NCBI RefSeq assembly: GCF_008000755.1
Contig: NZ_CP041690.1
Location: 372,001-436,000, forward strand
DNA from: Youhaiella tibetensis
Lineage (GTDB): Bacteria > Pseudomonadota > Alphaproteobacteria > Rhizobiales > Devosiaceae
DNA: 64,000 nt
Reading direction: 5' to 3'
This document shows, piece after piece, positions 9,852-13,996 of this stretch. A program made the position numbers and the translations under genes. A model generated the notes under the pieces. The model did no database searches, was not told the DNA's origin, and saw only the letters and a program-made list of their open reading frames with translations. Each line of letters opens with the position of its first letter. Within the stretch, counting starts at the first letter, position 1.

Positions 9852-9974
9852 CCCCTCATCCGGCCCTTCGGGCCACCTTCTCCCCGGAGGGGCGAAGGGA
9901 CGACGGCACGATTCGTGCCACGCGGGCACCTCTCCCCCTCGGGGAGAGGTCGCCGCAAAGCGGCGGGTGAGGGG
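9852..9974. repeat. Palindromic extragenic repeat element between cobW and cobN
   Basis: A 123-bp element fills most of the cobW-cobN gap. Its ends are inverted (CCCCTCATCCG at the left, CGGGTGAGGGG at the right) and it holds internal hairpins (GGCCCTTCGGGCC at 9862-9874, GGCACGATTCGTGCC near 9905-9919, CTCTCCCCCTCGGGGAGAG near 9930-9948). It starts one base after the cobW stop. It is read through in the operon and could form a strong mRNA structure; cobN starts 32 bp after it. Confidence 0.75.
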
Positions 9975-10006: not shown

Positions 10007-13000
10007 ATGCACCTTCTCGCCGCCCAGGCCGGCGCCATACAGCAGGAAGGCGAGGCGATCGATCTCAATCAGTCGCCCGGCGAGATCGTCTTCGGCACCT
10101 CCGCCGACAGCGAACTGGCCATGCTCGCCGCCGCCACCGACCGCGCCGGCTACAAGGGCCTGCGCCTCGCCAATCTCCTGAAGCTCTCGCACAACCTCTC
10201 GGTCGACCTCTGGCTCGACCAGACCGTGCGCCACGCCCGGCTCATCGTCCTCCGCCTCATCGGCGGCCCCGCCTATTGGCAATATGGCGTCGACGAAATC
10301 TACGCGCTCTCCATGCGTGAAAACATCCCCCTGGTGCTGCTCTCGCACGACGCGGTGCCCGACCCGGTCCTGCGCTCCCGCTCCACCATCGCCCCGGAAG
10401 ACTGGGACCGCCTGCTGACGCTGTTCGTTGCGGGCGGCCCGGAGAATGCCGATACGCTGCTGGCAGCATTCCAGCTTCTGGCCACCCCGGCCCTCCCCAC
10501 AAGGGGTAGGGAGCCAGTGTTGCACGACCTGCGGGCCCAACCCTTTTCCCGGTTCGGTTATTGGCATCCCGCCACCGGCATGACCGACGCCGACACCTTA
10601 CGCGCCCCAACGTCTCCCTCCCCCCTGTGGGGAGGGAACAAGGGTGGGGGTGAGCCGCAAGCTCGGAGTTCGTCGCCTACCCCCCTCCCATCCTCCCCCG
10701 CAAGGGGGGAGGTGCCGACCGTGATTGTAGAACCCGCATCGCACCAGCAACTGGATCGAAACACCTCCCCCCTTGCGGGGGAGGACGGGAGGGGGGTGAG
10801 CCAAACCCACCGCCCCCATGTCCCCATCCTCTTCTACCGGGCCGCCCTCGAAGGCGCCGGCACCGGAACGCTCACCGCCCTCATCGCAGCGCTGGAGGCC
10901 CAAGACCTCTATCCTGTCCCGCTGGTCGTCTCGACCCTCAAGGAGCCCTCCTGCGTCCGGTTCATCAAGGCGGCGCTCGCCGAGTTCCCGCCCGCCGCCA
11001 TCCTCAACCTCACCGGCTTCGCCCTCGGCCTCGACAACCTCGATCCTGCCCAGAACCCGTTTGCCGATACCGACGCCCCGGTGATCCAGCTCGTCCAGTC
11101 CGGCCGCTCGCGCGAACAGTGGACCGCCGACTACCAGGGCCTTTCCGCCAAGGACCTCGCCATGCTGGTGGTCCTCCCCGAACTCGACGGCCGCATCGGC
11201 GGCCTCATCGTCGGCCACAAGGAATCCTCGGTCTGGCACGACGCCACCCAATGCGCGCTCTCCTCTTACTCCCCCGACCCTGAAGGCATCGCGCGCGCCG
11301 CCACGCTGGCCGCCAACTACGCCCGCCTGCGCGTCACCCCGAACCCGGAAAAGCGCATCGCCCTGGTCCTCGCCAACTACCCCATCCGCGACGGCCGCCT
11401 CGCCAACGGCGTCGGCTACGATGCGCCGGAATCGACGATCGAAATCCTCAAGGCAATGGAAGCTGCTGGCTACGATCTAGCCCCAACGTCTCCCTCCCCC
11501 TTGTGGGGAGGGAACAAGGGTGGGGGTGAGCCCCAACCACCGAACCCGCTGCCCATCCCCGATTCCGCCGCCCTCATCGCCGCCCTGCAATCCGGTCCCA
11601 CCAACGCCGCCCCCTCCCGCGGCGACGGCATTCCATTTCCCCTTTCCCGCTACCGCGCCCTCTTCTCCGCCCTCCCCGAAAAGATCCAGGTCGAGGTCAC
11701 CGCCCGCTGGGGCGATCCCTCCGCCGATCCCTTCGTGCGCGGCGAAAACTTCCATCTCCCCGCACTCACGCTCGGCAATGTCGCGATCCTGCTCCAGCCC
11801 TCGCGCGGCTATGGCGGCGACGAAACCCTCAACTTCCACGATCCCGATCTCGTCCCGCCGCACGCCTATCTCGCCGCCTATCTCTGGCTGCGCCACGAGT
11901 TTTCCGCCCACGCGCTCATCCACAACGGCAAGCACGGCAATCTCGAATGGCTGCCCGGCAAGGGCGCCGCGCTCGATGCCGCCTCCTATCCCGATGCCCT
12001 TTGGGGCCAGATCCCGCACCTCTACCCCTTCATCGTCAACGATCCGGGCGAGGGCACGCAGGCCAAGCGCCGCACCGGCGCCACCATCATCGATCACCTG
12101 ACCCCGCCGCTCACCCGCGCCGAGACCTACGGGCCGCTGAAGGACCTCGAAGCGCTGCTCGATGAATATTACGCCGCCCTCGGCCTCGACCGCCGCCGGC
12201 TCGACGATCTGCGCAAGCGCATTCTCGATTTCACCCGCGACGCCCGCCTCGACCGCGACCTCGGCCTCCCGGAGGACGAGAACGAAGCCCTCAAGTCCAT
12301 CGACAACTTCCTCTGCGATTTGAAGGAAGCCCAGATCCGCGATGGCCTCCACGTCTTCGGCCGCTCGCCGCAGGGCGGAATGGCGCGTGACCTCATCGTC
12401 GCCCTGGCCCGTGTCCCCAGGGGGGATAACTCCCCCGCCGATGCCTCGCTCATCCGCGCCCTCGCCGACGATCTGAAACTGGGCTTCGATCCCCTGACCG
12501 CGCGCCTCGGCGAGCCCTGGTCGGGTCCGCTCATCTTCGTGGAGGAACCATTCATCGTCCCGGCAAAATTGCGGCGCGTGGGCGATGTGGTGGAGGCCCT
12601 CGAGGCCATAGCCGCCCAGCTGGTGGAGGGCATTCCCGCCCCCGCCGAATGGACCGCCACAAAAGCCGTCCTCGACACTATCGATACCATCATCCGCCCC
12701 CGTCTCGCCGCCTCCGGCCCCAACGAAATCAAGGCCTTGCTCGCAGGTCTCGACGGCAAGCACGTCCCCCCCGGCCCCTCCGGCGCCCCCTCGCGGGGAC
12801 GCCTCGACACCCTCCCGACGGGCCGCAACTTCTACTCGGTGGATAACCGCGCCGTCCCCACGCCGACCGCCTGGGAACTGGGCCGCAAATCGGCGGAAAA
12901 TCTCATCCGCCGCCACTTCCAGGACCAGGGGATATATCTGCGCTCGATCGCCCTCTCGGTCTGGGGCACCGCCAACATGCGCACCGGCGGCGATGACATC

Positions 13001-13996
13001 GCCCAGGCCATGGCCCTCATCGGCGCCAAGCCGCAATGGGACCCGTCATCCCTGCGCATTTCCGGCTACGAGATCATCCCGCTGGCAAAACTCGGTCGCC
13101 CGCGCGTCGACGTAACCCTCAGAATTTCCGGGCTTTTCCGCGATGCCTTCCCCCAGCAGATCGCGCTCTTCGACCGCGCCATCCGCGCCATCGGCGCGCT
13201 CGACGAGCCCGAGGAGGACAACCCGATCGCCGCCCGCATGCGCACCGACGCCCTCGGCCTCATGGCCGAAGGCGCCTCCGAGGCGGAAGCGGCCCTGCGC
13301 GCCGGCCACCGGATTTTCGGTTCCAAACCCGGCACTTACGGCGCCGGCCTTAACGCCATGATCGATTCCGGCCAGTGGCAGACCAAGGCCGACCTCGCCA
13401 AAACCTTCATCGATTGGGGCCAATACGCCTTCGGCTCGCAGGCCGCGGGCCTGCCCGAACGCGCCCGCTTCGCCGCCCGCCTCTCGGACATCGACGCCGT
13501 CGTCCACAATCAGGACAATCGCGAGCACGATCTCCTTGATTCGGACGACTATTACCAGTTCGAAGGCGGCCTTGCGGCTGCCTCCGAAACGCTGACGGGC
13601 CGCCAGCCCGCCGCCTACCACCTCGATCACTCCCGCCCCGAAAACCCGGTCGCCCGCACGCTCGAGGAAGAAATCTCGCGCGTCATGCGCTCACGCGTCG
13701 TCAATCCCAAGTGGATCGGCGGCATGCAGCGCCACGGCTACAAGGGCGCCTTCGAGATCATCGCCACGGTCGATTTCATGTTCGCCTTCGCCGCCACCAC
13801 CGGCGCGGTCAAGACGCACCATTTCGACCTCGCCTTCGAAGCCTATGTCGAGAACGACGCCGTGCGCGAATTCCTCCAGTCCGCCAATGCCTTCGGCTAT
13901 GACGAACTGCTCGACAAATTTCGCGAAGCCGTCACGCGCGGTCTCTGGACCCCACGCTCCAACTCCGCCTACGCTTTCCTGGAAACGGGGGCGTGA
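10007..13996 (+). CDS. cobN: Aerobic cobaltochelatase subunit CobN with in-frame repeat insertions
   Basis: The 1329-residue large subunit of the CobNST cobaltochelatase, which inserts Co2+ into hydrogenobyrinic acid a,c-diamide using ATP. Family landmarks include PVILFYRA-type PILFYRA near 275, LIHNGKHGNLEWLPGK near 640, PTGRNFYSVD near 943, and MQRHGYKGAFEI near 1244. It is longer than I expect for CobN (about 1250-1280). The extra length sits at about residues 200-268 and 492-509, which are translated GC-rich palindromic repeats. The frame stays open through both and no stop or frameshift is seen, so the protein is probably full length. Its stop overlaps the next start as TGATG. cobS and cobT are not in the window. 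Confidence 0.93.
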   Translation: MHLLAAQAGAIQQEGEAIDLNQSPGEIVFGTSADSELAMLAAATDRAGYKGLRLANLLKLSHNLSVDLWLDQTVRHARLIVLRLIGGPAYWQYGVDEIYALSMRENIPLVLLSHDAVPDPVLRSRSTIAPEDWDRLLTLFVAGGPENADTLLAAFQLLATPALPTRGREPVLHDLRAQPFSRFGYWHPATGMTDADTLRAPTSPSPLWGGNKGGGEPQARSSSPTPLPSSPARGEVPTVIVEPASHQQLDRNTSPLAGEDGRGVSQTHRPHVPILFYRAALEGAGTGTLTALIAALEAQDLYPVPLVVSTLKEPSCVRFIKAALAEFPPAAILNLTGFALGLDNLDPAQNPFADTDAPVIQLVQSGRSREQWTADYQGLSAKDLAMLVVLPELDGRIGGLIVGHKESSVWHDATQCALSSYSPDPEGIARAATLAANYARLRVTPNPEKRIALVLANYPIRDGRLANGVGYDAPESTIEILKAMEAAGYDLAPTSPSPLWGGNKGGGEPQPPNPLPIPDSAALIAALQSGPTNAAPSRGDGIPFPLSRYRALFSALPEKIQVEVTARWGDPSADPFVRGENFHLPALTLGNVAILLQPSRGYGGDETLNFHDPDLVPPHAYLAAYLWLRHEFSAHALIHNGKHGNLEWLPGKGAALDAASYPDALWGQIPHLYPFIVNDPGEGTQAKRRTGATIIDHLTPPLTRAETYGPLKDLEALLDEYYAALGLDRRRLDDLRKRILDFTRDARLDRDLGLPEDENEALKSIDNFLCDLKEAQIRDGLHVFGRSPQGGMARDLIVALARVPRGDNSPADASLIRALADDLKLGFDPLTARLGEPWSGPLIFVEEPFIVPAKLRRVGDVVEALEAIAAQLVEGIPAPAEWTATKAVLDTIDTIIRPRLAASGPNEIKALLAGLDGKHVPPGPSGAPSRGRLDTLPTGRNFYSVDNRAVPTPTAWELGRKSAENLIRRHFQDQGIYLRSIALSVWGTANMRTGGDDIAQAMALIGAKPQWDPSSLRISGYEIIPLAKLGRPRVDVTLRISGLFRDAFPQQIALFDRAIRAIGALDEPEEDNPIAARMRTDALGLMAEGASEAEAALRAGHRIFGSKPGTYGAGLNAMIDSGQWQTKADLAKTFIDWGQYAFGSQAAGLPERARFAARLSDIDAVVHNQDNREHDLLDSDDYYQFEGGLAAASETLTGRQPAAYHLDHSRPENPVARTLEEEISRVMRSRVVNPKWIGGMQRHGYKGAFEIIATVDFMFAFAATTGAVKTHHFDLAFEAYVENDAVREFLQSANAFGYDELLDKFREAVTRGLWTPRSNSAYAFLETGA
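10491..10513 (-). repeat. Reverse-oriented core fragment of the cobN repeat
   Basis: The reverse complement of these 23 bases matches the CTCCCTCCCC-TTGTGGGGAGGG core of the 53-bp repeats with one mismatch. It encodes ALPTRGREP within CobN and looks like a decayed third copy in the opposite direction. Confidence 0.6.
10604..10656 (+). repeat. 53-bp palindromic repeat copy A inside cobN
   Basis: It starts exactly at codon 200 of cobN and is identical to 11480-11532 at 52 of 53 positions. It holds a CTCCCTCCCC...GGGGAGGG hairpin and encodes APTSPSPLWGGNKGGGEP. Confidence 0.92.
10680..10796. repeat. Inverted-repeat element inside cobN
   Basis: Two 35-bp arms (10680-10714 and 10762-10796) are inverted copies of each other with one mismatch, separated by 47 bp. 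The arms are themselves hairpin-forming (CCTCCCCCGCAAGGGGGGAGG type). The whole element is read in frame in CobN, giving peptides such as PLPSSPARGEV and SPLAGEDGRGV. It resembles a complete two-armed palindromic repeat unit. Confidence 0.9.
11480..11532 (+). repeat. 53-bp palindromic repeat copy C inside cobN
   Basis: It starts exactly at codon 492 of cobN, in the same phase and direction as copy A, and differs from it at one base. It encodes the same peptide (APTSPSPLWGGNKGGGEP). It sits between AAGYDL and the region leading to the conserved ALIAALQSGPTNA. Confidence 0.92.

Follow-up and report, generated by a model that had tools for sequence, protein, structure and literature searches.

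The palindromic repeats that stand in frame in cobN of Youhaiella tibetensis are probably ends, solo or paired, of a small mobile element built around a DUF559 nuclease, which have lost the nuclease and settled in permissive loops of the protein. Palindromes flank most of the DUF559 genes sampled from the phylum, and in several relatives a complete DUF559 domain is found inside one of the CobN loops that carry repeats here. The pairing of nuclease and palindrome is seen at most loci examined, and this association suggests that the nuclease mobilises the repeats.

The window, meaning the whole 64-kb stretch of DNA analysed, contains five strict palindromes, four of them inside cobN. With only these five present, a comparison of the window with the sister species (G001) gave no useful clean empty sites elsewhere. 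The features concerned are as follows.

10007..13996, + strand: cobN, the carrier gene, encoding the large cobaltochelatase subunit (open reading frame of 1329 aa)
10604..10656, + strand: copy A, a solo A-type end (TCTCCCTCCCC..GGGGAGGGAACAAGGGTGGGGGTGAG) in loop 1b, codons 200-217
11480..11532, + strand: copy C, a solo A-type end in loop 2, codons 492-509
10679..10797, no strand: two-armed element of 119 bp in loop 1b, its arms complementary at 35/36 positions
10491..10513, - strand: reversed core fragment matching copy C at 22/23 positions, in loop 1a (variable CobN residues 163-171)
9929..9974, no strand: palindrome CCTCTCCCC..GGGGAGAGG with tail GGGTGAGGGG, in the gap upstream of cobN

The carrier gene is identified as cobN by the NCBIfam model TIGR02257 (1434.6 bits against a cut-off of 822) and also by Pfam and solved relatives; its top two named relatives are Devosia proteins with 68% and 67% identity. 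Copies A and C are each 53 nt long, identical at 52/53 positions, on the same strand and in codon phase 0, so that one peptide, APTSPSPLWGGNKGGGEP, is specified twice, as a preliminary description of this DNA had proposed. The reversed core and the frame open for about 1330 codons reported there were likewise recovered. Its two-armed element is present, with the bounds and arm match listed above in place of 10680-10796 and 34/35. The tail ACAAGGG assigns copy A to the A type. The repeats are apparently peptide-coding, to judge from the open and selected frame, and look tolerated. Several of these features point towards DUF559: loop 2, the site of copy C, is where 13 other genomes carry a DUF559 domain, a relative of the two-armed element from the same repeat family adjoins a DUF559 gene (L335) in the sister genome, and the palindrome upstream of cobN is of the type that flanks the Y. 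tibetensis genome's own DUF559 gene.

The genome search that the preliminary description proposed found the repeat to be dispersed. With three or fewer mismatches allowed, its 23-nt core is matched 117 times in the genome (56 forward and 61 reverse) and the reversed pattern not at all, which excludes chance. We read 111 distinct copies across 59 genome stretches. A-type left tetramers are GGTC in 31/51 cases and CGTC in 11/51, with the stem TCCCTCCCC. Where pairs could be classified, 26/27 join an A end with a B end, nearly all in two fixed geometries; 15 of the 111 copies and 9 of 36 pairs stayed outside the A/B classification. The A+B pairs look like the mobile element minus its gene, and the two-armed element of cobN is another repeat of this kind.

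More than half of the copies (57/111) lie in a frame that stays open for 60 codons in each direction. A Pfam scan of such frames, covering the A/B family, no more than two frames per copy, frames of at least 180 codons in all and hence copies away from gene ends, found no domain around the repeat in any of 38 long open frames other than cobN. Four of the 38 have a Pfam domain, the repeat is N-terminal to the domain in all four, and it is probably upstream of the true start in each. Among the frames scanned, cobN is the only clear in-frame case within this genome. The Rickettsia-like reading in the preliminary description is thus partly supported: a dispersed palindrome does stand in frame in cobN and is absent from many relatives, but the decoration of many proteins is not observed, and the link to a DUF559 nuclease had been missed.

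This link is evident at free-standing DUF559 genes. In the family, a group of 136 genomes related to Devosia, DUF559 has a palindrome no more than 100 bp away at 29 of the 30 best-scoring loci and at 17/20 further loci (46/50 together), and palindromes are present on both sides within 160 bp at 22/30 and 13/20 (35/50). A sample of 30 loci from the phylum, chosen like the first 30 family loci as the best-scoring with one per genome, gave 26/30 within 100 bp. The 20 further loci comprise three from the sister genome and the next 17 listed, one more DUF559 locus of that genome being left out. Palindrome density around DUF559 is 9.6 per kb nearby and 0.2-0.5 per kb beyond 200 bp. Among control genes, a palindrome within 100 bp was found at 0/30 HNH, 1/28 ParE and 3/25 GIY-YIG loci, two ParE and five GIY-YIG loci having been dropped as too short. 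HNH is a weak control because the domain takes up little of its gene, so that the 100-bp flanks are coding sequence, and ParE and GIY-YIG were added for this reason.

The reversed motif is also raised near DUF559 (6/30 and 3/20 family loci, 11/30 phylum loci), and a hairpin of any kind accompanies 28/30 phylum loci, as against 4/30 for HNH and 9/28 for ParE. Inward-pointing tails on both sides characterise 29/48 family loci and 4/29 phylum loci, counts that leave out two of the 50 and one of the 30. When a family locus has a downstream tail, the tail begins exactly 8 bp past the Pfam match in 24/33 cases. At one locus (L383, genome G104) the DUF559 frame appears by eye to be open into an alanyl-tRNA synthetase-like gene, probably upstream of the synthetase start.

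The cobN repeat itself occurs at such loci. Among 19 loci scored, which are those nearest the in-CobN nuclease (two of 21 were dropped as too short), the 40-nt A-type cobN repeat matches at 30/40 nt or better on at least one side of DUF559 in 13, and at 34/40 or better on both sides in seven, with a best match of 39/40; in 60 HNH flanks it reaches at most 22/40. Five loci (L368, L375, L376, L380 and L381) carry it at 34-39/40 on both sides in inverted orientation with the A end 5′ of the nuclease, and L374 has an A-like end on that side; these are the six best-matching loci. Two others, L365 and L366, have other tails on both sides. The single DUF559 gene of Y. tibetensis has flanks of the CCTCTCCCC type and an A/B-type best match of 24/40, which implies that the nuclease matching copies A and C is absent from this genome.

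Across 101 genomes the number of DUF559 genes correlates with the number of palindromes (rho 0.72, and 0.41-0.62 within the three largest genera), a relation partly built in through the counting of palindromes beside DUF559 itself. The median is 107.5 palindromes in genomes with DUF559 and 9 in those without. Roughly half of the Devosiaceae-group genomes surveyed have counts above 100. Three small genera of 5-7 genomes show no correlation, and two genomes, G054 and G089, are exceptions in being rich in palindromes (197 and 320) and free of DUF559.

An alternative that we consider rather unlikely is that the palindromes resemble REPs or Rickettsia palindromic elements and are moved by another enzyme, DUF559 merely homing into them and hitchhiking. 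In its favour are G054 and G089, and the A/B family of Y. tibetensis, for which this genome has no matching nuclease. Our search for a mobiliser covered Y1 transposases alone; a profile search for Y1_Tnp (PF01797) had no match in this genome, and a Y1 transposase was rejected as the mobiliser here. However, hitchhiking does not readily account for the fixed 8-bp spacing behind the nuclease, the placement of an A or A-like end 5′ of it at the best-matching loci, or the gene-less A+B pairs, which look like deletion derivatives of one unit.

The reading of the repeats as DUF559 element ends is also favoured by CobN proteins that contain the nuclease. A profile search placed DUF559 inside cobN in 13/136 family genomes, in every case in loop 2, and Pfam confirmed the domain in all ten proteins scanned (E 7.6e-26 to 5.9e-35); four of the 13 records (G076, G097, G106 and G107) are partial or broken. 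Loop 2 in these relatives reaches 419 aa and encloses a complete DUF559 domain that has palindrome-derived peptides on either side. In the longest case (L233, genome G071; a protein of 1698 aa) about five tandem palindrome-derived units precede the domain.

Residues E27, D56, E67, D69 and H73 are common to all 27 DUF559 sequences aligned, 11 from within CobN and 16 free. The predicted structure of the DUF559 domain within CobN (mean pLDDT 88.7) has fold matches to a putative Neisseria endonuclease (3hrl), to I-Bth0305I (3r3p, E 7e-5) and to Vsr (E 0.018). Inteins begin with Cys or Ser and end with His-Asn-Cys/Ser/Thr, and loop 2 sequences inspected by eye do not have these termini. Clear direct repeats flank the nuclease in a few species only, and were rejected as a general mark of insertion in CobN.

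The nuclease is patchily distributed and does not follow the CobN tree. Bearers are scattered on the CobN tree, with seven bearers requiring seven changes and 13 bearers 12. The nuclease tree rejects the CobN grouping (p-AU 0.0014, four sequences) and also rejects six bearers of one CobN clade as a group (p-AU 3.7e-6), in tests whose groups were chosen after the CobN and first nuclease trees had been seen. With few free copies included, the in-CobN sequences form one clade; with more, the free L365 and L366 fall inside them (93/84). A single entry into CobN with the free L335 as sister fails on the position of L365 and L366, and one in-CobN clade is neither supported nor rejected in the fuller tree (p-AU 0.196). 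The earlier DUF559 tree left out L279 (unreadable) and L275 (too short), and the free-standing L367 of G106 was replaced by the longer L385. Two genomes, G097 with DUF559 and G083 without it, have closely similar CobN cores and swapped loop content. Homing to a fixed site would produce such patchiness, as would frequent exchange combined with loss, and repeated loss could also account for it. CobN loops provide natural before-and-after pairs for the settling of a mobile domain in an enzyme, among them closely similar genes that differ in whether they hold the nuclease.

Strict palindromes in CobN are confined to the loops. When 63 family CobN proteins are aligned, the comparison with relatives that the preliminary description had called for, the inserts fall in stretches of variable length; variation is concentrated at residues 163-171, 201-267, 493-514 and 849-852 in the numbering of the window gene. 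The loops (21.5 kb) contain 96 instances of the strict motif CTCCCC..GGGGAG, and the core (226 kb) contains none. Allowing one mismatch per arm gives 175 in the loops against 43 for the reversed control and 80 against 60 in the core, and because of this background in the core we relied on the strict count. By the relaxed motif, 47/63 genes have a palindrome in at least one loop and 16/63 have none.

Comparison with the sister species, whose CobN is 90% identical, indicates how these loops evolve. Both copies, A and C, are kept there, as is the two-armed element, and a further 48 bp bearing a palindrome follows directly after copy C, in frame. This difference is the one case examined for target-site duplication; element ends and cut site are not readable in it. 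Between the two species the core has dN 0.049 and dS 0.424 (1195 codons) and the loops dN 0.204 and dS 0.219 (134 codons). The core is under purifying selection and the loops evolve neutrally. Loop dS (0.22) is half of core dS (0.42) in this pair of genes (L111 and L112). The inserts are predicted to be disordered: in the structure that AlphaFold predicts for residues 1-652 (mean pLDDT 75.9), whose best solved match is CobN 7c6o, pLDDT falls below 50 at inserts 203-266 and 496-512, as well as at the two termini and in two further short segments.

Since the sister species retains both copies as well as the two-armed element, and relaxed loop palindromes are prevalent among CobN genes, one might suppose that the palindromes have a selected function in cobN, such as forming mRNA hairpins or DNA-binding linkers. 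We regard this as very unlikely, given that loop dN approximates dS, that the type, orientation, frame and length of the inserts differ by species, and that 16 of the 63 genes lack them. Loop peptides vary among species in frame, strand and repeat family, so no single peptide is conserved.

It is scarcely credible that the loops are hypervariable low-complexity linkers grown by slippage, with palindromes alike through GC-rich codon use; their protein sequence is unconstrained and some species have short plain loops, but near-identical copies elsewhere in the genome, the absence of the strict motif from the core and a whole DUF559 domain in one loop all argue against it. Equally implausible is a decaying cobN pseudogene, which large inserts in a conserved enzyme and the broken frame of one relative (G107) might suggest, in view of a frame open in both sister species, a core dN/dS of about 0.12 and a profile score far above its cut-off.

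Other sequences share these sites. Peptides HGELVEPR/HGEPVEPRG and VRQAHDEELR, which we take to be repeat-derived, appear in the same CobN loops of relatives (L031, L038, L234 and L240), so that these loops may accommodate several repeat families unrelated to one another. Named genomes of Agrobacterium, Rhizobium and Ciceribacter (L072, L089, L055 and L065) likewise differ in CobN length, up to 1399 aa, and loop tolerance may extend past the Devosia-related family.

A full element would consist of an A end, a DUF559 nuclease gene and a B end in inverted orientation. In the mechanism that we favour, the DUF559 protein, with its Vsr/EDxHD fold, would cut or nick the palindrome or DNA close to it, after which repair by the host would copy the element in, as in homing. 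Internal deletion would produce nuclease-less ends that could be copied in trans, and in surface loops of CobN those insertions that leave the frame intact would survive as neutral, translated linkers. More tentatively, and with somewhat less assurance than we attach to the origin of the cobN repeats, DUF559 and its flanking palindromes may constitute an unrecognised class of mobile element in Pseudomonadota, in which a nuclease rather than a transposase spreads GGGGAG-type palindromes in a homing-like manner, leaves dispersed nuclease-less ends and enters genes in frame as a translated domain. DUF559 is then a candidate that may spread a common but unexplained class of bacterial repeats, and its fixed spacing to the repeat makes the origin of the palindromes directly testable.

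GIY-YIG nucleases and CGTC-type repeats may form a second pairing. CGTC-type REPs (GTCAT[CT]..ATCCA) lie within 200 bp of 10/25 GIY-YIG genes of the family (L450-L479), at 200-600 bp from 3/25, and near 0/49 DUF559 and 0/28 ParE loci.

Searches judged on titles and abstract openings, with subscription journals mostly outside their reach, found no published account of the pairing of DUF559 with palindromes and no mobiliser on record for these repeats. Known systems resemble it in part. Rickettsia palindromic elements are likewise tolerated in-frame palindromic repeats inside protein genes, as described by Di Nocera 2013 (PMC3733652), where Rickettsia conorii provides intragenic repeats, with which cobN contrasts as an exceptional case in its genome. 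Here too a dispersed palindromic family has in-frame copies, but they are not spread over many unrelated genes: one gene is affected in this genome, the same few loops of one enzyme are hit in many species, a nuclease gene is linked, and the host is a free-living Hyphomicrobiales relative of Devosia.

REP and REPIN sequences with their RAYT genes (REPtrons) share dispersed palindromes, inverted dimers and a dedicated repeat-flanked gene (PMC3733652). The present system has two kinds of end, A and B, and a Vsr/EDxHD-fold nuclease instead of a Y1 tyrosine transposase; with PF01797 absent from the genome, membership of the GTAG REP/REPIN-RAYT group was rejected. CGTC REPs, portrayed in that review as transposase-free with a CGTC tag, a stem beginning AT and a CCA tail (PMC3733652), do not fit the A-type tetramers and stem given above. 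As expected of MITEs, whose ends are the same as those of a gene-carrying relative, the repeats match sequences beside DUF559 genes in other genomes, at up to 39/40 nt.

The EDxHD homing endonuclease I-Bth0305I (PMC3943268) is alike in catalytic-domain fold and in its patchy occurrence at a single fixed position within a conserved gene, and the in-CobN nucleases have in addition a tree unlike that of their host. They differ from I-Bth0305I in that no intron or intein surrounds them; they are flanked by palindromes, left in the host protein and accompanied by dispersed solo ends. Caulobacter VsrA is also a Vsr-like DUF559 protein, described as a putative endonuclease of mismatch repair with a link to cytosine methylation (PMC12907096); a word search of that paper did not find 'palindrom'. 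A family so far read as serving mismatch repair may be, in part, the machinery of a mobile element.
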